From positions 1 through 40,399 of IMG/VR virus record IMGVR_UViG_3300032006_000028: DNA of 40,399 nucleotides. The stretch is one strand, 5' to 3'. Below the pieces are notes generated by a model that had not been told where the DNA came from, did no database searches, and saw nothing but the letters and a program-made list of their open reading frames with translations. Positions 1,019-39,793 of the stretch are shown here, in pieces. The DNA comes from a virus. Each line of letters opens with the position of its first letter. The stretch's first letter is position 1. The position numbers were made by a program, and so were the translations under genes.

Positions 1019-3076
1019 ATGGCAATACAAAATATAGGAACTACACTATCTGGTATCGCATCAGATACGAAACCCACTCTTACAGCCAATGAAAAGGGTG
1101 TTATTTTTATTGAGACAGACACGAATAAAATATATCAATGGGATACAGATTCGTGGAATCAGATAGTTGGGGCGGGAGATGTAGGGTCTGAGGATATTAC
1201 AACCACAGGACTTGTAACTGGGGGTACATTAAAGATTACTGGAGGTAGTCCGTCAGATGGAAAACTATTAACCGCTACAGACAGTAATGGTAATGCCGCA
1301 TGGGAAGATGCTGCTGGTGGAGGCGGAGGGACAGTAGACTTAGTAGCTGATGGTGCTATCGCAGCTGGTGCGGCTGTACATCTTACTTCTGCGGGTAAAG
1401 CCAAGCAGATAAAGGGAGCATGGGATTATCCTAGATCAGCACCAATGGCGGCTAATAGATATATTTCATTTGGCATATCACAGGTGCTAAGATTTCATTG
1501 GGACGACGCTAATAATAAACTAGTAACTGGTATGCATTCTTCTAACTACTTATATTCTCCTGTGGCAATAGAAGTTGTTGATACTACTAACCACTATACT
1601 GGAGTAATAAATGCCCACGGTGCGCCAGCAGACGCAACATATGGATACACAGCTAGAACTCTTGGATATTACAACGCTAGTTGTTATGACGAAGATACTG
1701 ACAGACTACTAATAGGTAGTACGCTAGGGGATGGCACTTACGACCTTGGAGTATTTGTTTCCGGGCTTTCTGGAACTACTTGGACAATGGGGACTGTTGG
1801 TAAACTTGATGGTACTAATAATCACTCACATCTGGCAATGGCTTATGACAAGACTGCTGATAAGGTAGTTGCGGTGACACGGGCTGATTTTGATGCGGCT
1901 GACGGATATTGTACTATTGGCACAGTAACAGGAGGGGGTACTAATAGCGTTTCATGGGGTACTCCGGTTGAATTTATAAATAATGCTAATGTTTCTAAAT
2001 GTGGTATAGTTTACGTCACTAGTATTGGTAAGTGTGTTGCTGTATTCGATGATAGTGACGATAACGCTAATTTTAAATCTGTCAATATATCTGTAAGCGG
2101 TACAACACCTAGCTTTGGTTCTATTCAAACTATAAAAAGTAATCTATGTGAGGGGGTTGGTGCTGATAGTAATGGTATATGTTATGATGAAAATGCAGAC
2201 AGAATTGTTGTATTCTTTTCCTATAATAGTGCCACTTCTGGTACAGGTGGTGGAGGGCATAACTTTTCTGATTATGGACACAAGAAATATACAGCGGCGG
2301 TTGCTATAGGCGCACCAACCTCCACCCATTGCAATTGGGTTACCCATGACTTTTACACTCCGGGGTCTGATACTATGGGGCATTCTGCTGCTGGGGCGAG
2401 ACGTTCACCTATGTATTACAGCTTAGACCCAAGTTATAACGGTTCTGACGATGCTATGGGATGGGATTACATAAGTGGTTGGATATCTTGTTGTTATGTT
2501 CCTGATGCTCAGAAAATACTTGTAGTCTTTGTAGTTGAAGATGCTCATATGCCAACTGTGGAGTCTCACGGACATAATACATCTGGTACAACTATGTATA
2601 TGACATTGGGAACTATAAGTAATACCCAAATATCCTTTACATCTCCCGAAGTTATATTTAGTGGTATTACGGATGGTGGATTTACTGTGGGGTACGATCA
2701 GCAAAATGACCGTGCGATGATTGGTTTTGGCCCCGCTCAACAAGACCAGTTAAGTGTAATCCCCGGAGCGTGGGAATCAGGTTCGGTAGAAGACTTTAAT
2801 GTAGGCTACTTAGACCAGTACCTCGGTCTGGCTACAGCTGGTGTAAGTGATGGTGAGACTGTAACTGTTACTATACCGGGTGGGGTAAATGAAAATCAGA
2901 GTTCACTTGTTGTAGGTAGTACTTATTATCTAGCACCAACAGGCGAAATACACAACCAGCTAGCACGACATTGGAAAGGTCATCAAATAACTATTGGACA
3001 GGCTATATCTGCCACCAAAATACTAGTCGGTAGTGAAGGATACGGTAAAAATCTTCAGGGGGCAGGGAAATACTAA
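1019..3076 (+). CDS. Fibre/adhesin protein A, beta-propeller-like, paralogue of the gene at 3749
   Basis: The product has 685 residues. The first 50 or so residues (SGIASDTKP, ANEKG, IETDTNK, YQWDTDSWN) are nearly identical to those of the gene at 3749 and look like a virion-attachment domain. A short beta-rich stretch leads to a poly-Gly hinge around residues 98-103. The long middle has repeated blocks of the type YDxxxDRxLIG / YDKTADKVVAV / YDQQNDRAMIGF, which are typical of propeller-like repeats in phage adhesins. The C-terminus again matches its paralogue (SSLVVGSTYYL; QAISATKILVG). ATG at 1019 has AAGGAG 7 nt upstream. Its stop overlaps the start of the next gene. The predicted role is receptor binding; attachment to tail or head cannot be decided from sequence. 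Confidence 0.7.
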   Translation: MAIQNIGTTLSGIASDTKPTLTANEKGVIFIETDTNKIYQWDTDSWNQIVGAGDVGSEDITTTGLVTGGTLKITGGSPSDGKLLTATDSNGNAAWEDAAGGGGGTVDLVADGAIAAGAAVHLTSAGKAKQIKGAWDYPRSAPMAANRYISFGISQVLRFHWDDANNKLVTGMHSSNYLYSPVAIEVVDTTNHYTGVINAHGAPADATYGYTARTLGYYNASCYDEDTDRLLIGSTLGDGTYDLGVFVSGLSGTTWTMGTVGKLDGTNNHSHLAMAYDKTADKVVAVTRADFDAADGYCTIGTVTGGGTNSVSWGTPVEFINNANVSKCGIVYVTSIGKCVAVFDDSDDNANFKSVNISVSGTTPSFGSIQTIKSNLCEGVGADSNGICYDENADRIVVFFSYNSATSGTGGGGHNFSDYGHKKYTAAVAIGAPTSTHCNWVTHDFYTPGSDTMGHSAAGARRSPMYYSLDPSYNGSDDAMGWDYISGWISCCYVPDAQKILVVFVVEDAHMPTVESHGHNTSGTTMYMTLGTISNTQISFTSPEVIFSGITDGGFTVGYDQQNDRAMIGFGPAQQDQLSVIPGAWESGSVEDFNVGYLDQYLGLATAGVSDGETVTVTIPGGVNENQSSLVVGSTYYLAPTGEIHNQLARHWKGHQITIGQAISATKILVGSEGYGKNLQGAGKY

Positions 3077-3748: not shown

Positions 3749-6397
3749 ATGGCAATACAATATATAGGATCAATAATATCAGGTATAGCATCTGATACTA
3801 AACCTACCCCGTCAGCAAATGAGAAGGGTGTTTTATTCATTGAGACAGATACTAATAAAGTCTATCAATGGGATACTGACTCATGGAATGAAGTCACGTC
3901 TAATGCTGCTAACTTATCTGGTACAACATTAAATTCAAATATTGTTACGTCGTCTCTTACAACTGTTGGAGCATTAAATGCTGGATCAATAACATCAGGC
4001 TTTACATCTATAGATGTTGGGTCTGGAGGAATTACAACAACAGGGACAGTTACTGCAGGTGATTTAAATGTAACTGGTACAACAACTACAATAGATTCAA
4101 CTAATACAACGATAGCTGATCGATTAATTGAATTGGCAAACGGAGCTAGCTCCTCTACAGCAGACGCAGGAATTATTGTGGAAAGAGGTTCTACAGGCGA
4201 TAATGCTGTTATAGCATGGGATGAGAGTGCCGATACATGGACATTAGGCACTACAACAGCTACAGGTTCTTCTACTGGTGATCTTACAATTACTGCTGGA
4301 ACTCTTGCTGCAAATCTTAGTGGCGATATAACAAGTACTGGAGCAGTTAATATTACTCCCGCAGCAGGATCAGCAATTGTTTTAGACGGTACGATTAACA
4401 TAGACGCTGGTGTAGTAACCGGGGCTACAAGTATCACATCCGGGGCGGTTGTTGTACCTGAAGGGCAATTAACCCTTGGTAGTACAGCAGTTACTTCTAC
4501 TGCCGCAGAGATAAATACTTTAGACGCTCTTTCTAGAGGTAGTATTCTATACGGTAATGCTAGTGCGGCTACTACCGTACTTACTAAAGGTACTGCTGGT
4601 ACGGTTCTAACATCTGACGGGACGGATATTTCATGGGCTGAGGCTTCTGGAGGTGGGGGTGGATCAGTAACCTTAGAAGTAGCTAGTGGACAAACAATTA
4701 CACCGGGAATGGCTGTGGGAGTTGATAGTACTGGAAAGGTAATTCCATTCACCCAAACAGGTGCTGATTATACAGCGATAACTGAGTATAGACCCGCTGC
4801 TGATATAGCTGCCGGTAAATATATAAAAAATATGCAGATTGCGTATGATACAGAGACAGATTTGCATGTAGCTATATATACTAAACATACATCAACGGCT
4901 ACAGGGTTTATTGCGGAAGGTGCTAATATATATGCTGTAGCGTTTTCCGTAGACGCTAACGATGTTATTACTTGGGGTACAGAACGGACAATAAGTACTA
5001 GTCAAGTATTGTACGATAGAATGTGTATAGGGTATTGTGCAACGAAAAATCAAGTTGTAGCAGCATGGCTTGGTGACAGTAGTAAATTAGAATTACGTTT
5101 ATTAAAGCCTGTGGCTGGCTCTCCTCCCACAATTAATGCAAGTACGGAATTAGAAGTTTCTAGTAATATGTATTCCGAACCGCCCCATATAGCTGATTGT
5201 AGTGATGGTTCAGACCATAGAATATTAATATCTTTTTGCTCAACTAACTATAGGGCAGCGGCTAGGATAATAACTTTTGGGACTTGGGATGAATCTCATG
5301 GAGGGGCGCATAATCTTACTTTAGGCACTCAATATGACCTGAACTCTACGGCTAACTATTATATGGGAACCGCTGCGTGGAGTCGAGGAACTAAATCCTC
5401 TAATAGCGGTAAACAATTAATAGCTTATTATTATAGCGGAATTTATGGTTATGATATCGGCACTAGTGGGGGTACAATAAATACTATAACTTTCCGAAAC
5501 CATAGTATTTCTAATAGAGGCCCCGGACGTATGATATGGGCAGGGACTAATGCGGAAACACACTTATATCAAGACCATTCTGGCTCAACGGATCATGTTA
5601 TACGTTATAATATAAGTGCTGCAGATAATACTGTTACAGAAGGAGCCTATGCTAATGGGAAATTGACTTTAGGGAGTTCGTCAAATGGGCAGCATGGTAC
5701 TGAACTAATTTATTACGGCACTCAAGATAAAATGGTAGCAATACACAAAAGAAATTATGGAAGTTTTAATTATGCGTATGGGCCTCCCGGAAGTGCATGG
5801 TATATTGTAAATTATACCGAGTTTTTCCATTTGTATATGTGGGATGGGGGTGATGGCGGTGATAGAATGTACGGCGGTGGTACGGGAGGAGCCTATGATA
5901 CTTACGATAGCTATTTAAAGGTTACTCCAATGCAAGGAAATTTTATACATTCAGCCCATACCTGTTCTACGTCGGGTGTTTATAACCCAGATAGAAATAG
6001 AATTCTTGTTGCACAAAACTATTCTGGATGGACTGCCGAAAAGACACTACCTTTAGACGGCGCATATCCAAGTCTAGCAGCGGGGATTTGGATGATAAAG
6101 ACAGATACTGGTATGGATGATCATGGTAGTGTACCTAAATTTCTTGGATTTAGTAATGCATCTAGTAACGTTACTGCGGGTAATGACGTAGAAGTTACTG
6201 TTACTAGCGGAACTAATTCACAACAATCTGGGTTGACTATAGGAGCGCAATATTTCTTAGATAGCTTTGGAATTTTAAGTCCTTATGGGCCACAACCAGT
6301 ATCTAGAGCCAATATACTTGCAGGAACCGCAATATCAGCTACTGAATTAGTAGTTACGGGGCAAGATGCTCCCGCAAGTTACTATGGAATGGAGTAA
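3749..6397 (+). CDS. Fibre/adhesin protein B, paralogue of adhesin A with an added shaft
   Basis: The product has 882 residues and a GGGAG ribosome binding site before ATG 3749. The N-terminal 50 residues match adhesin A. Residues of roughly 50-300 are a Thr/Gly/Ser/Ala-rich shaft with short repeats (TTGTVTAGDLNVTGT, GIIVERGSTGDNAVIAWDE), a pattern seen in phage fibre shafts; adhesin A has only a much shorter version. A poly-Gly hinge (GGGGG) then leads to a propeller-like domain (TETDLHVAIYTK, ATKNQVVAAW, SDHRILISF, QDKMVAIHK) and to a C-terminal domain matching adhesin A (SGLTIGAQYFLD; AGTAISATELVV). The same attachment domain with different distal parts suggests two receptor specificities, or two positions in one fibre. 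Confidence 0.7.
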   Translation: MAIQYIGSIISGIASDTKPTPSANEKGVLFIETDTNKVYQWDTDSWNEVTSNAANLSGTTLNSNIVTSSLTTVGALNAGSITSGFTSIDVGSGGITTTGTVTAGDLNVTGTTTTIDSTNTTIADRLIELANGASSSTADAGIIVERGSTGDNAVIAWDESADTWTLGTTTATGSSTGDLTITAGTLAANLSGDITSTGAVNITPAAGSAIVLDGTINIDAGVVTGATSITSGAVVVPEGQLTLGSTAVTSTAAEINTLDALSRGSILYGNASAATTVLTKGTAGTVLTSDGTDISWAEASGGGGGSVTLEVASGQTITPGMAVGVDSTGKVIPFTQTGADYTAITEYRPAADIAAGKYIKNMQIAYDTETDLHVAIYTKHTSTATGFIAEGANIYAVAFSVDANDVITWGTERTISTSQVLYDRMCIGYCATKNQVVAAWLGDSSKLELRLLKPVAGSPPTINASTELEVSSNMYSEPPHIADCSDGSDHRILISFCSTNYRAAARIITFGTWDESHGGAHNLTLGTQYDLNSTANYYMGTAAWSRGTKSSNSGKQLIAYYYSGIYGYDIGTSGGTINTITFRNHSISNRGPGRMIWAGTNAETHLYQDHSGSTDHVIRYNISAADNTVTEGAYANGKLTLGSSSNGQHGTELIYYGTQDKMVAIHKRNYGSFNYAYGPPGSAWYIVNYTEFFHLYMWDGGDGGDRMYGGGTGGAYDTYDSYLKVTPMQGNFIHSAHTCSTSGVYNPDRNRILVAQNYSGWTAEKTLPLDGAYPSLAAGIWMIKTDTGMDDHGSVPKFLGFSNASSNVTAGNDVEVTVTSGTNSQQSGLTIGAQYFLDSFGILSPYGPQPVSRANILAGTAISATELVVTGQDAPASYYGME

Positions 6398-11489: not shown

Positions 11490-11701
11490 GTGCCTTCCTG
11501 CGGGGCATTGTTAAGGATATAAGTCCGCAGGAGATCATAGTGTTTAACTATTGGTCAACCATAATAAGTTTGGTAAAACAAGGAATTCCATACGATGTGA
11601 TCCAAACGCTTTCTGAAGGAGAACTAGCCGTTATTTTAGGAACATTAGGGGCTATAAATGAGAAAGAAGCACAGGATCAAGCTCGTATGATGCAGAGGTG
11701 A
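11073..11701 (+). CDS. Tail assembly chaperone, -1 frameshift fusion (G-T-like)
   Basis: Reading ATA AAA AAA GAA TAA in frame 0, slippage by -1 at A AAA AAA (11477-11483) continues as AGA ATA AGT GCC TTC and stays open to the TGA at 11699-11701. This adds 72 residues to 137, about 209 in all. The extension (AFLRGIVKDISPQEIIVFNY.. and ..ARMMQR) is helical and protein-like. It has no convincing start or ribosome binding site of its own. The tape measure start follows 4 nt later. Position, slippery site and downstream hairpin together are the textbook arrangement for siphovirus tail chaperones. Confidence 0.8.
11477..11533 (+). other. Programmed -1 ribosomal frameshift signal
   Basis: A heptamer of seven A residues (11477-11483) is aligned with frame 0 as A AAA AAA. 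Twelve nt after it begins a hairpin: TCCTGCGG (11496-11503) pairs perfectly with CCGCAGGA (11525-11532), with a flanking T-G pair (11495/11533) and an inner G-T pair, around a loop of about 20 nt. The stem is GC-rich in an AT-rich region. The spacing is slightly longer than typical. Confidence 0.75.
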
Positions 11702-31902: not shown

Positions 31903-33558
31903 GTGGTTTTACAGCAGGAAGCAACTACTTATAATGATGCTTTTAATCAACTTGCAGAAGGAATTGCGTCGGCACAACAACAACGAGTAAAGGTTGGTAG
32001 CTTTTATGAGTTCCTTAGAGATATTTGGAGTCAAAGTTTTGAACATCCAGAGTACTTTAAGGCGTGGCATGTTGGGGTAGTAGCTGAAGATATAGAATAC
32101 TGCCTTGAAAATGATTTAAATTACTGTGCTGTATTACCTAGGTTCCACTTTAAATCTACACTTTTAGGTCATGCTTTTAGTATATGGAGATTATTACAAG
32201 CAACTCGTGATATGTCAGTATTATATCTATCGTATAGTGATGGAATGGCTCAATACCATATTAATGAGATTAACAAAACAGTAAAGCGTAATCCTCAATT
32301 AATGGAGTGGATGAAGAATAGAAATCCAAAAGCGGACTATTCGTTCAGATATCATGTTAATAAACATCCAGTTGATATTATGCATGGAGGATTGTTTTCA
32401 TTTAAACGAGGTATGCATGTTAATGGAGCTTTAATTGCAGATGACGTGTTACGTGACCCTGAGAACCCATTGAATAATACACAAATAAATAAGGTTGAAG
32501 ATCACTTTTTAACAGAAAGTTTATTCATTCCGTTAAAAGGTGTACCAGTAATAGTGTTAGGAACTCCCATGATGCCGGGGGATTTGCTGTCTAAGTTACA
32601 GAACGATGATCGATTTTTAGCTAGGAACTTACCAGCTTTAGACCCAGCACCAGATCGTAGAGTTTTAATGCCTGAGTTATATAGTGAAGAATGGTTACTA
32701 CAACAACAACGAGCTAGACCAAAATCATTTGCATCGGAGTTTTTATTAATTCCACATTGGTCAAGTGAAGCATATTTTGAGGAAGAAGATATTGACAAGC
32801 TACAGAATGAGGAGTTAGAATTATATCCTGCCTCAAAAAAGTATGTAAAGAAGGATGAGACGGAAGAATTATTTGCGGGGTTTGATGTAGGTAAAAAGAG
32901 GCATCCATCACACCTAGTAATTTTTAGACGAATAGGAAATACTATAGAACAGATACATCAATCATGGTTAGATGGTTGGAATTATTCTGATCAAATAGAA
33001 TTTTTAAATGATATAGCGGAGAATTTTGATTTGACGAAAGGTTATATAGATAATACTCGTGGAGAGTTAGAAGATAGGGGGTTACACCATTCGTGGTGGC
33101 CTATGAATTTTACGAGAAAGAATAAAAATACAATGGCACAAGTTTTTGAACAATATGTCCACGGTGGACATTTACAGATATTGAAAGACGAGAGACAGAA
33201 ACAACAGATTTTATCAGTTAATAATGAGCTAAAAGCACCCGAAACACCTATGGGTCATGGAGATGCATTCTTTTCCATTTCAATGGCATTGATGGCAGCC
33301 CATGAATCTACGGCGTACAGTATGAATGTACTTGGTAATGTCCAAGATTGGGCATCCGATATATTGGGGGAGACTAGTCAAAGTCCTAGTTTAGATCAAC
33401 AGCAAAATAGCAGTCTTGTGGATTTCCAAAATTCTGTTATTAACTCAGATTTAGATATGTCAGATTGCCCGAAACCTAATTGTACGGATGAATTTTGTCG
33501 TCCATCTTTTTGGGTTCCAGCTAATAAACTTTGTTTAAAATGTAATTATAGAGGATAG
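31903..33558 (+). CDS. terL: Terminase large subunit with C-terminal zinc-ribbon-like tail
   Basis: The product has 551 residues from GTG 31903. ATPase: Walker A variant at 80-86 (RFHFKST), Walker B at 177-181 (ALIADD), coupling motif VLGTPM near 220. RNase H-like nuclease: D328 (AGFDVGKKRH), D383 (YIDNTRGE), D454 (HGDAFFSIS). It packages and cuts the DNA at the portal. The last 30 residues carry C522, C527, C532, C544 and C547 (CPKPNC, FC, CLKC), a zinc-ribbon-like addition not usual in this family. Confidence 0.88.
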   Translation: MVLQQEATTYNDAFNQLAEGIASAQQQRVKVGSFYEFLRDIWSQSFEHPEYFKAWHVGVVAEDIEYCLENDLNYCAVLPRFHFKSTLLGHAFSIWRLLQATRDMSVLYLSYSDGMAQYHINEINKTVKRNPQLMEWMKNRNPKADYSFRYHVNKHPVDIMHGGLFSFKRGMHVNGALIADDVLRDPENPLNNTQINKVEDHFLTESLFIPLKGVPVIVLGTPMMPGDLLSKLQNDDRFLARNLPALDPAPDRRVLMPELYSEEWLLQQQRARPKSFASEFLLIPHWSSEAYFEEEDIDKLQNEELELYPASKKYVKKDETEELFAGFDVGKKRHPSHLVIFRRIGNTIEQIHQSWLDGWNYSDQIEFLNDIAENFDLTKGYIDNTRGELEDRGLHHSWWPMNFTRKNKNTMAQVFEQYVHGGHLQILKDERQKQQILSVNNELKAPETPMGHGDAFFSISMALMAAHESTAYSMNVLGNVQDWASDILGETSQSPSLDQQQNSSLVDFQNSVINSDLDMSDCPKPNCTDEFCRPSFWVPANKLCLKCNYRG

Positions 33559-33571
33559 GAGGTTTCCATAA

Positions 33572-35386
33572 ATGACGACAACAATTTCCCCCCAAGCTGA
33601 GACGGTATTAGCACATCGCTATTATTTAAAAGATGATACTAGTGAGCCACTTGAAGATTCGGATGGATTATTTCGACGGGTTGCTAAAGCTATAGCTAGT
33701 ATTGAAGATCAATATCTCACACTTAAAGTTGAGAAGGATTTATTAGAAATTGATTTTTATAATATGATGGCGGATTTAGAATTTATACCTAACTCTCCCA
33801 CATTAATGAATGCTGGGACAGAACAAGGTACGCTTTCTGCATGTTTTGTTTTACCGTTAGAGGATAGTATGGAGGGTATTATGAAAGCAGCTACTGATGC
33901 TGCAATGGTACAAAAGTTTGGTGGGGGTACGGGGTTTTCGTTGTCTAAATTGCGTCCAAAAGGAGCAGCCATTAAATCCACACATGGTATTGCTTGTGGG
34001 CCAATTGAAGTTTTAAAAACCTTATCACGAGTTTCTTCTATGATCACTCAAGGAGGTAAACGTGATGGAGCAAATATGGCGGTCATGTCTGTGTATCATC
34101 CAGACATACTTGAGTTCATCGATTGTAAATCAACTGAAGGTGATATACACAATTTTAATATTAGTGTTGGTGTGGATCAACATTTTATGAAAATGGTTGA
34201 GTGGGATATGTCTTATGCATTAATTGATCCTAAGACAAAACGAGGAACAATTACAATACCAGCACGGACAGTATTTAAAAAAATATGTGAGGGGGCGTGG
34301 AAAAACGGAGAGCCGGGAGTTATCTTTTTAGATAATGTTAATGAGGATAATAAAGTACAGAATAAATTTGGCCCCATGATTGCAACTAATCCTTGTGGGG
34401 AACAACCTTTACTGCCTAATGAATCCTGTAATTTAGGGTCTATAAACCTTTCTAAATTTGTTATAGATAAACAAATTGATTGGAATCATTTGGAGAAGAC
34501 TACACGATTAGCAGTTAATTTCTTGGATAATGTAATTGATGCAAATTATTACGCTACTCCTGAGATTGAAGAAATGACTAAAGCTACTCGTAAGATTGGG
34601 GTAGGTGTAATGGGGTTTGCTGATTTATTAATACAATTAGAGATTCCTTACAATTCTCCAAAAGCTCGAAGTCTCGGACGAGATATAATGAATTTTGTTC
34701 GGAAGGCAGCTGACGAGGCTTCTATAAATTTGGCAGCAAAACGTAGTCCCTTTCCAGCATTTGAAGATAGTACCTTTAATAAAATTACAGAAACATATCG
34801 GAATGCTTGTAGAATGACAGTAGCTCCAACAGGTACAATATCTATGATTGCTGATTGTTCATCGGGGATCGAACCAAATTTCGCTTTAGCGTGGGAAAAG
34901 CAGAATATTTTAGAGGGTAAGACATTAGTTTATATAAATAGTTATTTTGAACAAGCAGCTAAAGACGGTGGGTTTTATTCAGAAGGGTTAATGCAATACT
35001 TAGCTAATGGAGGTTCCTTACAAGATCGGGCAGAAGTTCCTCAAAATATTAAGGAACTATATATAACTGCCCCAGAATTAACTCCTGAAGAACATGTGTT
35101 AATGCAAGCAGCATTTCAACCTGCAGTAGATTCAGGAATATCAAAAACTATTAATATGCCTAATTATGCTACCGTACAAGATGTATGGGATACATATATG
35201 TTGGCATGGAAAGAAGATTGTAAAGGAATAACAGTTTATAGAGAAGGGAGTAGGGATAAAGAAGTTTTAGTAAAGGGTACACAAAGTGTTGACGGGTTTC
35301 AATGTTGTGAAAATCCTAGCATAATTTATCAAGACGGTTGCCATAAATGTCAACGTTGTGATTGGAGTGCTTGTGAAATAGCATAA
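33572..35386 (+). CDS. nrdJ: Class II (adenosylcobalamin-dependent) ribonucleotide reductase
   Basis: The product has 604 residues with a TAGGAGG site 9 nt before ATG 33572. Core motifs: FGGGTGFSLSKLRPKG, ITQGGKRDGANM, NPCGEQ with radical Cys C275 and E277, redox pair C91 (SACFV) and C286 (ESCNLGS), APTGTISMIA. No separate beta subunit gene is nearby, in keeping with class II. The tail has C578, C579, C590, C593, C596 and C601 (CHKCQRC), which would relay electrons from a thioredoxin or glutaredoxin; one is encoded at 37082. It makes deoxynucleotides for replication and needs vitamin B12 from the host. Confidence 0.88.
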   Translation: MTTTISPQAETVLAHRYYLKDDTSEPLEDSDGLFRRVAKAIASIEDQYLTLKVEKDLLEIDFYNMMADLEFIPNSPTLMNAGTEQGTLSACFVLPLEDSMEGIMKAATDAAMVQKFGGGTGFSLSKLRPKGAAIKSTHGIACGPIEVLKTLSRVSSMITQGGKRDGANMAVMSVYHPDILEFIDCKSTEGDIHNFNISVGVDQHFMKMVEWDMSYALIDPKTKRGTITIPARTVFKKICEGAWKNGEPGVIFLDNVNEDNKVQNKFGPMIATNPCGEQPLLPNESCNLGSINLSKFVIDKQIDWNHLEKTTRLAVNFLDNVIDANYYATPEIEEMTKATRKIGVGVMGFADLLIQLEIPYNSPKARSLGRDIMNFVRKAADEASINLAAKRSPFPAFEDSTFNKITETYRNACRMTVAPTGTISMIADCSSGIEPNFALAWEKQNILEGKTLVYINSYFEQAAKDGGFYSEGLMQYLANGGSLQDRAEVPQNIKELYITAPELTPEEHVLMQAAFQPAVDSGISKTINMPNYATVQDVWDTYMLAWKEDCKGITVYREGSRDKEVLVKGTQSVDGFQCCENPSIIYQDGCHKCQRCDWSACEIA

Positions 35387-35450: not shown

Positions 35451-36854
35451 ATGTTTAAACGACTTTTAAAGCGGGTGTTATGGATTCCTGACATTCATAT
35501 GCCTGTAATTACGTTTCCAAAAATTGGCTTACCAAAAGTTAGAATACCGACGATTAAAATACCGTTAAAGAGAGTAAGTACAGTTTTAGGGGCTATCAAT
35601 ACATCATTATTAGTAGCTCTTGGAGTTATAGGATTATTTATATCGTATATTAATCCGATTCCTTCAATTACACCATATATCTCATTAGCTTTAGCTAATA
35701 ATTTATTTGATGCTGTGATATATTTACAAGCGAATTTACTTCCGACTATTGGCGTATCTTCAACTTTAATTGTTTTTGGGTTACTTATCCATGTAGCCAA
35801 CTTTAGGACGGCTCCAAAAGCTGTTTTACGATCTCCGATTGCTCTATATAAAAAGATTGTGGTGTGGAGAAATTGGGTGCTGGCTAAGATAACTTACTTA
35901 AACGAAGAGTCCGCAAAATGGAAGACGACGTTTAAAATTATGATGTCTCCATATACATTACTGAGAGCATTAGGATTTTCACCTCAGATGGCTATAGGTT
36001 TGTTAGCAGTTGGAGGTACAGCAGGAAGTGGAGTTGTAATTAATGAGACGGTCTTAGCCGATAGAAGCTTCACAAATGGAGACTCAGGCATATATGCTGC
36101 CCCTGCCCAGAACCCTTCTCCGACACTAGAACAAACAATGGCGTGGAGAAAAGAAAATAAAGAGGACAATACGTTACGAATTGTTTTATCTGATACACCA
36201 GTAAGAGAAATTAAAATAGAGAATGTATCTGTGGGAACTGTATATAATGGTTCAGCGATACCTTCATCAGCACATACTTCTGCTGGTGGTACTGCGGCTG
36301 CGGCTACAGCAGTATTGATTGGTGGTACAGTAGTAGCTGGAGAGAATGCTGTCCCTACCTTCCTAGAGGTGGGCGAATTACTGATCGAGAAATCGAGGTG
36401 TACGTTTATGTATTTTGATAACATTACGGCGCATACGATTAACGTAATTGGAAACGCTTCAGATGGACAGTCGATAAATACCACACCGGGAACCTCAAGA
36501 ATGAGGGCAATCGGTGGTGGACATCATCAGGCTGAAGCGATGGTGACTTCAGGTGGATCGTACGATAGGATACATATTGATAGTCCAACCAGCGCAAAAA
36601 ATGGGAAAATTGATAAACTAACTCTTTCAAATTTATATACTGAAGGGGGTGCTTGTGTATTTGATCGAATGAAGGTCGGTACACTAACTATTAGACTTAA
36701 CGAAATAGGTGGTGGTGGTAACGCTGGTGTCTCAGACGGATTTGCTACTAAGGAATTTAAGATACACCAGAGCGTGACTGCAGCCAACTGGAACGTCTCC
36801 GATAACGTTGAGGTCGTTACTGGCGCACCTACGGCAACATTAACTAACGAATAA
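35451..36854 (+). CDS. Membrane-anchored beta-rich protein of unknown function
   Basis: The product has 467 residues. A basic start with a Pro/Ile repeat (FPKIGLPKVRIPTIKIPLKR) precedes hydrophobic segments of about 48-70 (TSLLVALGVIGLFISYI), 75-95, 100-120 (TLIVFGLLIHV) and about 180-205 (MAIGLLAVGGTAGSGVVI). The C-terminal 250 residues are a polar beta-rich domain (REIKIENVSVG, HTINVIGNASDG, KIDKLTLSNLYTEGG), like right-handed beta-helix rungs. It lies between nrdJ and the portal. It might be a virion protein that meets the host membrane or a surface-exposed exclusion factor; neither is shown. No family recognised. Confidence 0.6.
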   Translation: MFKRLLKRVLWIPDIHMPVITFPKIGLPKVRIPTIKIPLKRVSTVLGAINTSLLVALGVIGLFISYINPIPSITPYISLALANNLFDAVIYLQANLLPTIGVSSTLIVFGLLIHVANFRTAPKAVLRSPIALYKKIVVWRNWVLAKITYLNEESAKWKTTFKIMMSPYTLLRALGFSPQMAIGLLAVGGTAGSGVVINETVLADRSFTNGDSGIYAAPAQNPSPTLEQTMAWRKENKEDNTLRIVLSDTPVREIKIENVSVGTVYNGSAIPSSAHTSAGGTAAAATAVLIGGTVVAGENAVPTFLEVGELLIEKSRCTFMYFDNITAHTINVIGNASDGQSINTTPGTSRMRAIGGGHHQAEAMVTSGGSYDRIHIDSPTSAKNGKIDKLTLSNLYTEGGACVFDRMKVGTLTIRLNEIGGGGNAGVSDGFATKEFKIHQSVTAANWNVSDNVEVVTGAPTATLTNE

Positions 36855-36974: not shown

Positions 36975-37082
36975 ATGGCAAGAAGGACATGGACAAGGTG
37001 TAAATGTGGTGTTAAACTACATGTAAAGAAAGAACGACGATTATGTATTTTATGTGAACGTAAACAGAGGAAGGAGGGTTAA
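36975..37082 (+). CDS. Tiny basic CxC/CxxC zinc-knuckle protein
   Basis: The product has 35 residues, starting directly after the previous stop and sharing one base with the glutaredoxin ATG. C9 and C11 (CKC) and C24 and C27 (CILC) in a very basic background (RRTWTR, KKERR, ERKQRKE) form a minimal zinc knuckle. Translational coupling with the glutaredoxin is likely. It might bind nucleic acid. Function unknown. Confidence 0.5.
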   Translation: MARRTWTRCKCGVKLHVKKERRLCILCERKQRKEG

Positions 37083-37309
37083 TGTCTGATATAACGGTAT
37101 TTACATCTGATGGTTGAGGCCCCTGTGCTATGACCAAGTCTTGGTTAACGAAACAAGGGCATGAATATACTGAATATAATATTTCAACAAACAATGAATA
37201 TGCGAAAGATTTAGTACGCATGGGGTTTAGAGTCACTCCTGTAACAGTTATAGGGGATGAGATGATAGTGGGGTTTAGCCCACAAAAATTAGAGAAAGCT
37301 TTAAGTTAA
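37082..37309 (+). CDS. Glutaredoxin/NrdH-like protein with in-frame UGA at the active site (probable selenoprotein)
   Basis: The product has 75 residues if UGA (37115-37117) is read as residue 12. The start is firm: AAGGAGGG then ATG 37082. The N-terminal strand ITVFTSDG leads to UGA-Gly-Pro-Cys, where glutaredoxins and thioredoxins have Cys-x-x-Cys (C15 is kept). The rest is a full glutaredoxin fold: helix AMTKSWLTKQG, strand EYTEYNI, the cis-Pro motif RVTPVTV, then IGDEMIVGFSPQKLEKAL. Codons after UGA are intact with no other defect, so the gene is not decaying. UGA acts as a normal stop elsewhere in the window. A SECIS-like hairpin lies just downstream. A sequencing error or inactivating mutation of TGT to TGA is the alternative. 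A role as RNR reductant is inferred. Confidence 0.75.
37121..37159 (+). promoter_or_regulatory. SECIS-like hairpin downstream of the in-frame UGA
   Basis: Bases 37131-37137 (TGACCAA) pair with 37141-37147 (TTGGTTA), seven pairs including one G-U, closing a GTC loop. The loop starts with G and lies 20 nt after the UGA. This fits what I know of the bacterial SECIS consensus: upper stem of at least 4 pairs, G in the first two loop bases, loop 16-37 nt from UGA. A lower stem CCCT/AGGG (37121-37124 with 37156-37159) can extend it. Confidence 0.6.
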
Positions 37310-37339: not shown

Positions 37340-37783
37340 ATGGTATTAGGTAATATCTTACGAGAACGAGATCAGCAGTATGTGGCAAATAGGGATGACG
37401 CAACGCAGACATGGAGAGTATTAGATACATGGCATGATGCGTTAACCCAGATTGGGCCAGAAGATGAAATTCCTGATGACAGCCCAGCGGTAACATTGAT
37501 CTCAGAAGGGGCTTTTATTGCAGTAGTAAGGGAAGCATCTCGTTTAGGAGTTCTTCAAAACGCTACATATGGTACAGGAGAAGCAGAATACGAAGCAATA
37601 ATTCTAGAGAAGGAGCAGGAAATTCAAAATTTGAATGAACAACTCCTAGCTTTAGAAGAGGATAAATCTCAAGTAATTAGGAATGTTTCTCATTCAGAAG
37701 AATATGAATTAAAAGAGAAAGCGATGGCATCGATTCTAAAATTAGTATCAATGCAAGACATGACTAATTTAGGTAGGGAGTAA
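37340..37783 (+). CDS. Coiled-coil protein of unknown function before portal
   Basis: The product has 147 residues with TAGGAGAG before ATG 37340. The N-terminal half is globular (TWRVLDTWHDALTQIG, EGAFIAVVREASRLGVLQN); residues of about 83-115 form a coiled coil (AIILEKEQEIQNLNEQLLAL and on). The end is amphipathic (KAMASILKLVSMQDM). Immediately upstream of the portal gene, so possibly a head assembly factor. No family recognised. Confidence 0.6.
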   Translation: MVLGNILRERDQQYVANRDDATQTWRVLDTWHDALTQIGPEDEIPDDSPAVTLISEGAFIAVVREASRLGVLQNATYGTGEAEYEAIILEKEQEIQNLNEQLLALEEDKSQVIRNVSHSEEYELKEKAMASILKLVSMQDMTNLGRE

Positions 37784-37786
37784 TAA

Positions 37787-39793
37787 ATGAAACTAGGACA
37801 ATACATGCCCCATGTGCCTCAGATGGCACAGCAAATATCTAATCTAAATTCTGAAATGGAGATGTTGCAACTAATGAAATCTGGGGGAGATGTTGGGCAA
37901 GCCCCCACCATTGGATTAGACCATGTAGTTAATACGTGGGTACGTCATCAAATGGCGTATCGGCAACAACTTATCCAAGATTTACAAATGGTTGCATTTA
38001 CAGTAGAAGAAATACGAGGCCCATTAAATCACATATCTAATGAAGTTTTTAGACGGGGGATTGATTTAGTACCGAAAGTAGAGAATCCCGATCATGAACA
38101 ATTAAAGATTGTAGAATCTTATATGCAAGATTGTAATGTGTTTGATCAATCATTAGAAGAAGTATTACGACAATTTCACTTTGATGTTAATTCTATTGAC
38201 GATGGTTTTTTATATTTAGCTAAGGAATATAGGACTACGGATGAAGGAAAACTCGTCTCCAAAATACAAGAAATACGACGGCTTAATCCAGCCCTCGTCG
38301 AGTTCGATCTTGACGCAGCTGGCTTACCGAAAAATGCACATTTTATGTGTCCAATCCACAGAGACGAAATCTATGACGAACCCACAACGTGTAGTGAAGA
38401 AGACTGTGGGCATGAATGTAAAGCTGTTATGTATAAGTATTATCATAGGAATAAGCATATTTACTTATTTGATTCTGAAGTAATACACGTTTCTAAATTT
38501 AATCCATCGGAAACATATGGATGGAGTCCAATCCTAACCATCTTTGAAAAAGCTTTAACGCTAATTGGAATGGATAAAAACCTATTTAGATATTTCTTTG
38601 AGAGGAGAATGCCCGCTTCAATGATGATGGTCTTTACAGATGACCCAGAAAGTTTGAAACGGGAACGAGAAAACATAGCATCTCAAACACGACAAGACCC
38701 GAACTATGTTCCTATGGTCGCAGTTTCTTCTCGTAATCAACGAGGGCGGGTAGAGATGTTACGACTATTCCACACCTTACAGGAGATGGATTACTTACCT
38801 GTTAGAAATGAAATACGGGAACGAATCGCAGCTATGTGGGGCGTAACTCCAGCATGGCAAGGCGCACCTGAAGCTTTTGGTGGATTATCCACACAGACTC
38901 AACAGTTAGTTGTTATGAGTCGAGTTGTTGAAGGTGATCAAAGAATCTTCCATGAGAAGGTATTCCCATTGTTATTAGAGAATATGGGAGTAACCGATTG
39001 GGAAATAGCATTACCAAATCCTGAAGAGAAGGCTGAAGCTACTCGAATTAGTTTCGCTCAGCAAAGGGCGCAAGTTGTAATGATGTATCAGCAATTAGGA
39101 TTTGATGTACGTCTTAAAGATGATGAGGTTGGTTTGGACGAAGCCGAATTCGTTATCTCAGGTATGGCAGTTCCATTAGCTCAAATGCAAGGGGAACAAA
39201 TGGCTATAGCTGTTAAACAGATGGAAGAACAAGCAGCTATGCAAGAAGAACAAATGAATGAAATGGCAGCACAACAACCGGGAATGGCTGGAGTTAATCC
39301 TGCCCCCGGAAATACAGGGGCTGCCCCAGCAGGAGGAGAAGGGCCGGGGGCAACTCCGCTTCAATTGATGTGGCAAAATCTTACTAAGGGTATGAATCCT
39401 GAAAGTACGCTTGCAGATATAACGGGGCGTAAAGAAAAGGATGTTGACCATGATGCTGATGAACGAGCTAGAAAGGGGGAGAACAATTCCTTTGGCTTAC
39501 AAGATACTGGCACACCTCCGGGGAAACAATTATATACACAAAAACCAAAAATGTGGATGGAAGCATTGATGGAAAAAGGATATACAACTCCAGTAGTTAA
39601 AGAAGTTAGTCCTGATAATAAACAATTATGGTTTGTAAATGACGGGATTGATTATGTAGCTAACTTAAATGGTAGTGGTATAACCCATGTTCAGAAAGCT
39701 AAAATGGTTGATCAATCTCCACCACCTAAAATTAGTTATAACCCATCGCAAGTGGGGAATACTAGAGACGAGGATGAAGATGCCGATAACTAA
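37787..39793 (+). CDS. Portal protein
   Basis: The product has 668 residues, 3 nt after the previous gene. Portal-like features: an N-terminal helix region (NTWVRHQMAYRQQLIQDLQM), a DDGFLYLAKEYR strand, HVSKFNPSETYGWSPI, FEKALTLIGMDKNLFRYFFERR, then SSRNQRGRVEMLRLFHTLQEM and ERIAAMWGVTPAWQG near the stem/clip. A Cys/His group (CPIHRDE..CSEEDCGHEC around residues 188-207) looks like an inserted zinc site. The C-terminal 200 residues are Gln/Met/Glu and Pro/Gly rich. It forms the ring at the head vertex through which terminase pumps DNA. Confidence 0.75.
   Translation: MKLGQYMPHVPQMAQQISNLNSEMEMLQLMKSGGDVGQAPTIGLDHVVNTWVRHQMAYRQQLIQDLQMVAFTVEEIRGPLNHISNEVFRRGIDLVPKVENPDHEQLKIVESYMQDCNVFDQSLEEVLRQFHFDVNSIDDGFLYLAKEYRTTDEGKLVSKIQEIRRLNPALVEFDLDAAGLPKNAHFMCPIHRDEIYDEPTTCSEEDCGHECKAVMYKYYHRNKHIYLFDSEVIHVSKFNPSETYGWSPILTIFEKALTLIGMDKNLFRYFFERRMPASMMMVFTDDPESLKRERENIASQTRQDPNYVPMVAVSSRNQRGRVEMLRLFHTLQEMDYLPVRNEIRERIAAMWGVTPAWQGAPEAFGGLSTQTQQLVVMSRVVEGDQRIFHEKVFPLLLENMGVTDWEIALPNPEEKAEATRISFAQQRAQVVMMYQQLGFDVRLKDDEVGLDEAEFVISGMAVPLAQMQGEQMAIAVKQMEEQAAMQEEQMNEMAAQQPGMAGVNPAPGNTGAAPAGGEGPGATPLQLMWQNLTKGMNPESTLADITGRKEKDVDHDADERARKGENNSFGLQDTGTPPGKQLYTQKPKMWMEALMEKGYTTPVVKEVSPDNKQLWFVNDGIDYVANLNGSGITHVQKAKMVDQSPPPKISYNPSQVGNTRDEDEDADN

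Follow-up and report, generated by a model that had tools for sequence, protein, structure and literature searches.

Does an in-frame UGA at the catalytic position of a viral glutaredoxin gene end the protein, or is it read as selenocysteine (Sec)? The question is raised by the viral contig IMGVR_UViG_3300032006_000028, the whole 40,399-base stretch of which is called the window here. At positions 37082–37309 of its plus strand lies the frame of a 75-residue glutaredoxin or NrdH-like redoxin, of which the ATG at 37082 overlaps the stop codon of the preceding gene (TAATG), following a Shine-Dalgarno-like AAGGAGGG at 37071–37078; AGGAGG-type sites likewise stand ahead of the glutaredoxin starts of its relatives. 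The frame runs to a TAA terminator at 37307–37309, and its sole interruption is a TGA at 37115–37117, a candidate Sec codon that is codon 12 and the first position of the UxxC motif (here UGPC). The resolving cysteine of this motif, Cys15, is encoded by TGT at 37124–37126. Read through, the product is MSDITVFTSDGUGPCAMTKSWLTKQGHEYTEYNISTNNEYAKDLVRMGFRVTPVTVIGDEMIVGFSPQKLEKALS, which matches the Pfam Glutaredoxin family PF00462 with an E-value of 8e-13 (48.8 bits, with a cut-off of 22.9) and the PHROG_22 thioredoxin domain with an E-value of 7e-18. Its AlphaFold2 model (pLDDT 95.8) has an NrdH/Grx fold, and NrdH redoxins and cGrx1 are the closest solved folds according to Foldseek, with a TM-score of 0.94 to cGrx1 (7c10, which we take to be the oremlandii glutaredoxin) and of 0.86–0.87 to the NrdH structures 4hs1, 4fiw and 1h75. 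Both Cys15 and the cis-proline Pro53 (codon CCT at 37238) are invariant in the redoxin alignment, with Sec standing in for the first Cys of CxxC. This confirms that the gene is an NrdH-like glutaredoxin with UGA in place of the first catalytic Cys codon, as the initial annotation had read it from the intact frame.

A lone stop in an otherwise intact frame resembles a sequencing error, or a fresh nonsense mutation in a decaying pseudogene. Either is refuted, however, by the presence of UGA at the same glutaredoxin codon in 53 further IMG/VR viral contigs from about 30 datasets, and by the protein conservation on both flanks of the UGA, which extends down to 48% identity with no second stop or frameshift in the relatives’ glutaredoxins. 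With the window counted in, these UGA glutaredoxins comprise 38 distinct core sequences. Of the seven viral contigs returned by a protein search with the window redoxin, each of the six close relatives has TGA at codon 12, and the seventh (L007, 36% identical) is a Cys glutaredoxin. A search with an alignment of the Sec type, which initially had the Cys form GCGPC as its pattern, added more close relatives, every one with TGA. The set of 53 was completed with a DNA pattern for UGPC, which itself contains TGA and is therefore biased; in an unbiased repeat with the pattern G-x-G-P-C-x-x-T-K-x-W, in which codon x is free, 44 of the 46 matches had TGA, one had TGC and one CTG. The latter two turned out to be chance frames and not family members, as did the pattern matches L160, L163, L179, L181–L184, L187 and L188. 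Furthermore, a group-wide scan of in-frame TGAs found the glutaredoxin TGA kept in all 22 relatives that have coding sequence on both sides of it. As such, the conserved UGA that the initial annotation had looked for in relatives is present, and the signs of decay that it had held against its own reading, i.e. stops at random positions or frameshifts, are absent from the relatives searched, as is a Cys codon from the close ones.

Phages with reassigned stop codons are known, yet there is next to no chance that UGA is generally a sense codon here. It is the ordinary stop of several window genes, including the six at 11699, 21684, 26955, 27879, 30404 and 30900 to which the initial annotation had pointed (all indeed TGA), and most larger relatives likewise have ORFs that end with it. 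In addition, the group-wide scan for further selenoproteins yielded no other UGA conserved as coding among the matches listed, most other in-frame TGA matches being antisense shadows of genes. Equally negligible is an internal start at the ATG at 37130, where a 59-residue frame opens: in many relatives the corresponding codon is GCA, GTA or ACA, the 5’ codons and the ribosome site are conserved, and the product would miss the catalytic motif together with the first strand.

If the UGA encodes the attacking residue, Cys would be expected in its place elsewhere, and this is what the initial annotation had anticipated. We sampled the virus group independently of the redoxin, via its portal protein (80 loci), and found a glutaredoxin within about 4 kb in 18 of these loci, 12 with UGA and six with Cys. 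The Cys forms come in three distinct versions, with TSNGCAPCMATKSWL in L289, L290 and L292, and SASWCVPC in L260/L261 and in L264. They occupy the same slot as the Sec form, in the order terminase, ribonucleotide reductase (RNR), glutaredoxin, p147, portal. In the window, all on the plus strand, these markers are the terminase large subunit at 31903–33558 (PHROG_38, E-value 9e-25), the RNR at 33572–35386 (PF02867, E-value 3e-129), the 147-residue protein p147 immediately 3’ of the glutaredoxin at 37340–37783, and the portal protein at 37787–39793 (PHROG_18178, E-value 2e-46). The slot lacks a glutaredoxin in many further members of the group, and some fragments stop short of it. Cys is also aligned with U in bacterial relatives of the redoxin. 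Judged from gene order and alignment, we thus show that the predicted Sec form and the Cys form exchange at one syntenic site.

Directly downstream of the UGA, the mRNA can form a hairpin similar to a bacterial SECIS element (37131–37147, plus strand). Numbering the UGA as 1–3, positions 17–22 (UGACCA) pair with positions 28–33 (UGGUUA) to form a 6-bp stem, closed by the five-base loop AGUCU, which starts after 19 nt from the UGA and of which G24 (position 37138) is invariant in 31 distinct sequences. Across these sequences 98.4% of the hairpin cells are paired, and sliding the partner strand leaves no more than 48% of them so. As their outer pair, 14 sequences have C-G and 14 have U-A, and three have a mismatch, the covarying pair being broken in L141, L148 and L155. 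This pair joins the second base of codon +5 (ATG, GCA, GTA, ACA or TTA) to the choice between TTA and TTG at Leu +10, and since these two codons are synonymous, constraint on the protein does not explain the association (Fisher p 3e-6, uncorrected for kinship). On the tree there are four parsimony changes on the 5’ side, and in independent pairs the 3’ side changes along, the sign test comprising three pairs, too few for significance. At codons +5 to +8 synonymous diversity drops to 0.13, 0.13, 0.00 and 0.01, compared to about 0.5–1.5 at most others, and ACC and AAG, which make up 10% of Thr and 32% of Lys codons, respectively, are almost fixed at hairpin codons.

The hairpins are also more stable than those of synonymous resamples, with a mean z of -2.4 over 38 sequences; the core hairpin of the window alone folds at -5.2 kcal/mol, with a z of -0.7 that is not significant. 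A longer stem in the window folds at -11.4 kcal/mol (45 nt from the UGA) to -16.0 kcal/mol (60 nt), and it is with this extended stem that the window reaches the SECIS energy criterion of -7.5 kcal/mol or lower, some relatives staying at about -6.5. Bacterial SECIS elements have a loop of 3–9 nt, a stem of 4–16 bp, a G in loop position 1 or 2 and a distance of 16–37 nt from the UGA (PMC13188914). The window hairpin lies within these limits of loop, stem and spacing, in support of the initial annotation as far as geometry is concerned; an Rfam search of the hairpin region gave no SECIS match. Another subgroup of seven sequences has a different hairpin, in which positions 20–26 pair with 30–36 to form a 7-bp stem with the loop GUG, and which has its own U-A/C-G covarying pair. 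This GUG-loop hairpin is common to the virus type of L137, L156, L158, L166 and L180 and to the type of L019 and L139. Conversely, the Cys ortholog L290 keeps the residues MATKSWL, encoded by ATG GCT ACG AAA TCT TGG TTA, and with three of the six pairs broken it has lost the hairpin. The Sec form with its hairpin and the Cys form without it, at the same site, make a clean natural experiment on the use of Sec.

Readthrough of UGA by near-cognate tRNA-Trp occurs in general. The UGA might accordingly be read as an ordinary residue such as Trp, through leakiness or a suppressor tRNA, with both the truncated and the full-length product being used, and a hairpin could stimulate such readthrough. We nevertheless regard this as very improbable, since the orthologs have Cys at the aligned residue, and not Trp or Arg, and a Trp at position 12 would delete the nucleophile of UxxC, whereas the resolving Cys and the cis-Pro stay invariant. 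Moreover, the loop G, the spacing and the stem fit the bacterial SECIS model, and no phage suppressor tRNA was present in the loci scanned. Decoding of the glutaredoxin UGA as Sec, by comparison, appears close to certain from the conserved codon, the Cys orthologs and the hairpin together, which lends support to the phage selenoprotein that the initial annotation had proposed.

What, then, would decode it? We found neither tRNA-Sec nor SelB in the virus records tested, which may be incomplete; two tRNA-Sec candidates, in G004 and G014, are actually tRNA-Tyr. With UGA serving as a stop elsewhere, this leads us to infer that the Sec machinery of the host is the decoder. The SECIS elements of Archaea and eukaryotes are located in the 3’ UTR (PMC1088965), and the position of the present hairpin within the gene therefore indicates decoding in a bacterial host. 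The bacterial Sec-glutaredoxin carriers L098 and L100, of Bacillota, have both tRNA-Sec and SelB in their genomes. Chloroflexota, the phylum of an Anaerolinea MAG, were sampled with 301 genomes, and many of the glutaredoxin matches there had one TGA; the two that were read, L196 and L200, are of the UPHC type, and the sequence that follows their UGA can form a hairpin. Cellular Sec-glutaredoxins may thus be far commoner in Chloroflexota than published lists suggest; the UGPC pattern was absent from 299 Pseudomonadota. Within the three phyla sampled, and with query types that differed between them, the viral RNR is at most 60% identical to Chloroflexota MAGs and at most 53%, over the full length, to the best of 300 Bacillota, with no match at 1e-100 in 299 Pseudomonadota; phage isolates reach about 40%. 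In the two genomes with the best Chloroflexota RNRs, the tRNA-Sec-like matches examined were tRNA-Ser only, and the Chloroflexota genome G702 (RNR 58.5% identical) has a real tRNA-Sec. Chloroflexota are as such a weak lead to the host.

The viruses themselves are far from all cultured phages, as follows from the only, distant matches of the portal and from the terminase, which has no match among 50,697 phage records. Within the same records the portal (37787–39793) matches only the haloarchaeal tailed viruses HVTV-1 and HCTV-1/5, at 27–30% identity over half of its length. Elsewhere in the window, two large proteins (1019–3076 and 3749–6397) have near-identical N-terminal segments (MAIQ-IG---SGIASDTKPT---NEKGV-FIETDTNK-YQWDTDSWN), which suggests duplicated modules of a putative tail or fibre. 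The ORF just 5’ of the glutaredoxin (36975–37079) encodes some 35 residues with a CxC and a CxxC pair (TRCKCGVKLHV...LCILCERK), possibly a small zinc-binding protein.

NrdH redoxins donate electrons to RNR and are themselves reduced by thioredoxin reductase, glutaredoxins by glutathione. The RNR of the window is of class II (adenosylcobalamin-type), with a Cys-rich C-terminal tail, its best phage matches being annotated as B12-dependent or class II, and between it and the glutaredoxin many contigs have a 467-residue protein with a hydrophobic N-terminal part (35451–36854, plus strand, no match in Pfam and PHROG). Of 22 further records with the Sec-glutaredoxin, 16 also have an RNR. Given this linkage and the donor role of NrdH redoxins, the phage RNR is taken as the most likely client, and the likely job of the Sec-redoxin would be to reduce it. 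Could it instead serve as a general thiol reductase, as a reductant of peroxide or host proteins, or for another phage partner? In six of the 22 further records there is no RNR on the fragment, some of these having the gene beside a PolA-like one: the contigs of the L019, L020 and L139 type, as well as L140, have none on their fragments. Most contigs, however, have the Sec-glutaredoxin beside a class II RNR, including those of a second virus type (L137, L156) of which the RNR is 50% identical to that of the window; furthermore, the fold is NrdH-like and the Cys forms share the slot next to RNR. A client other than RNR is thus unlikely, though the records with no RNR give it appreciable weight. 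The second virus type, only distantly related, comprises L137, L156, L158, L166 and L180, with contigs of up to 105 kb. L019, L020, L139, L162 and L171 represent a third context, in which the Sec-glutaredoxin is near the PolA-like gene and the fragments tested have no RNR.

With RNR as the favoured client, the following mechanism can be proposed. The phage mRNA would carry a bacterial-type SECIS hairpin within the coding sequence, just 3’ of the UGA, to which the SelB-Sec-tRNASec complex of the host would bind, so that the ribosome inserts Sec rather than stopping; the phage would contribute the mRNA element, and the host SelA, SelB, SelC and SelD. The Sec-redoxin would then hand electrons to the phage class II RNR, supplying dNTPs during infection. 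The gene, its conserved UGA and the conserved hairpin are shown here at the level of sequence comparison, and from these we infer Sec insertion in vivo, use of the host machinery, RNR as client and any kinetic advantage. As a whole, the explanation of a phage selenoprotein made through hairpin and host Sec decoding, with RNR as the most likely client, has a high probability in our view, and the full mechanism up to RNR is likely. The ‘faster reductant during infection’ of the initial annotation would be a step beyond this, and becomes plausible in one specific version given that the gene is linked to the phage class II RNR. More tentatively, it is possible that this tailed-phage lineage needs host selenium for its DNA precursors, the Sec-redoxin feeding a class II (B12) RNR, and that its efficient replication is confined to hosts that decode Sec, possibly Chloroflexota, with the switch between Sec and Cys tracking the decoding ability of the host. 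Borrowing an optional decoding system of the host could limit the host range of phages and make their DNA synthesis dependent on selenium. If this family does encode a selenoprotein, the natural selenoproteome extends to bacterial viruses. Since standard gene callers end a gene of this kind at its UGA, such genes are missed in viral databases.

How does the viral redoxin compare to known systems? It has the size and fold of NrdH redoxins (1h75, 4hs1, 4fiw), and NrdH-like genes are common in phages. The solved NrdH redoxins are Cys proteins, however, and the viral redoxin differs from them by a predicted Sec in place of the first Cys. Bacteria are well known to have Sec-glutaredoxins (PMC13188914, PMC1088965, PMC1794560), and that of Clostridium/Alkaliphilus oremlandii (PMC13188914) is alike in its Grx fold, in the Sec at the attacking position of UxxC and in the SECIS inside the gene. 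Unlike the bacterial ones (L098, L100, L196, L200), those described here are encoded by viruses, have UGPC and not UPHC, and stand beside a class II RNR. In a tree that is weakly resolved owing to its few columns, the viral UGPC rows fall on one side of a branch with support 79/93, and L098 and L100 have a branch of their own. A Sec-glutaredoxin family of ten sequences was described from the Sargasso Sea metagenome and treated as bacterial, in a text with no phage or virus in it (PMC1088965); it consists of marine Sec-glutaredoxins with a bacterial SECIS, in which it resembles the viral family, and may include members of it. Genes for tRNA-Sec have been reported in Basilisk-like phages (PMC6145125) and in huge phages (PMC10747093), where no phage selenoprotein is named in the passages considered; here, conversely, there is a putative selenoprotein and tRNA-Sec was not found. 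A 2026 review of the prokaryotic selenoproteome makes no mention of phages or viruses (PMC13188914), nor did we find a published phage selenoprotein in the openly licensed literature. Sec-glutaredoxins of bacteria are thus already known, and what is new is a virus-encoded, RNR-linked family of putative Sec-NrdH redoxins.
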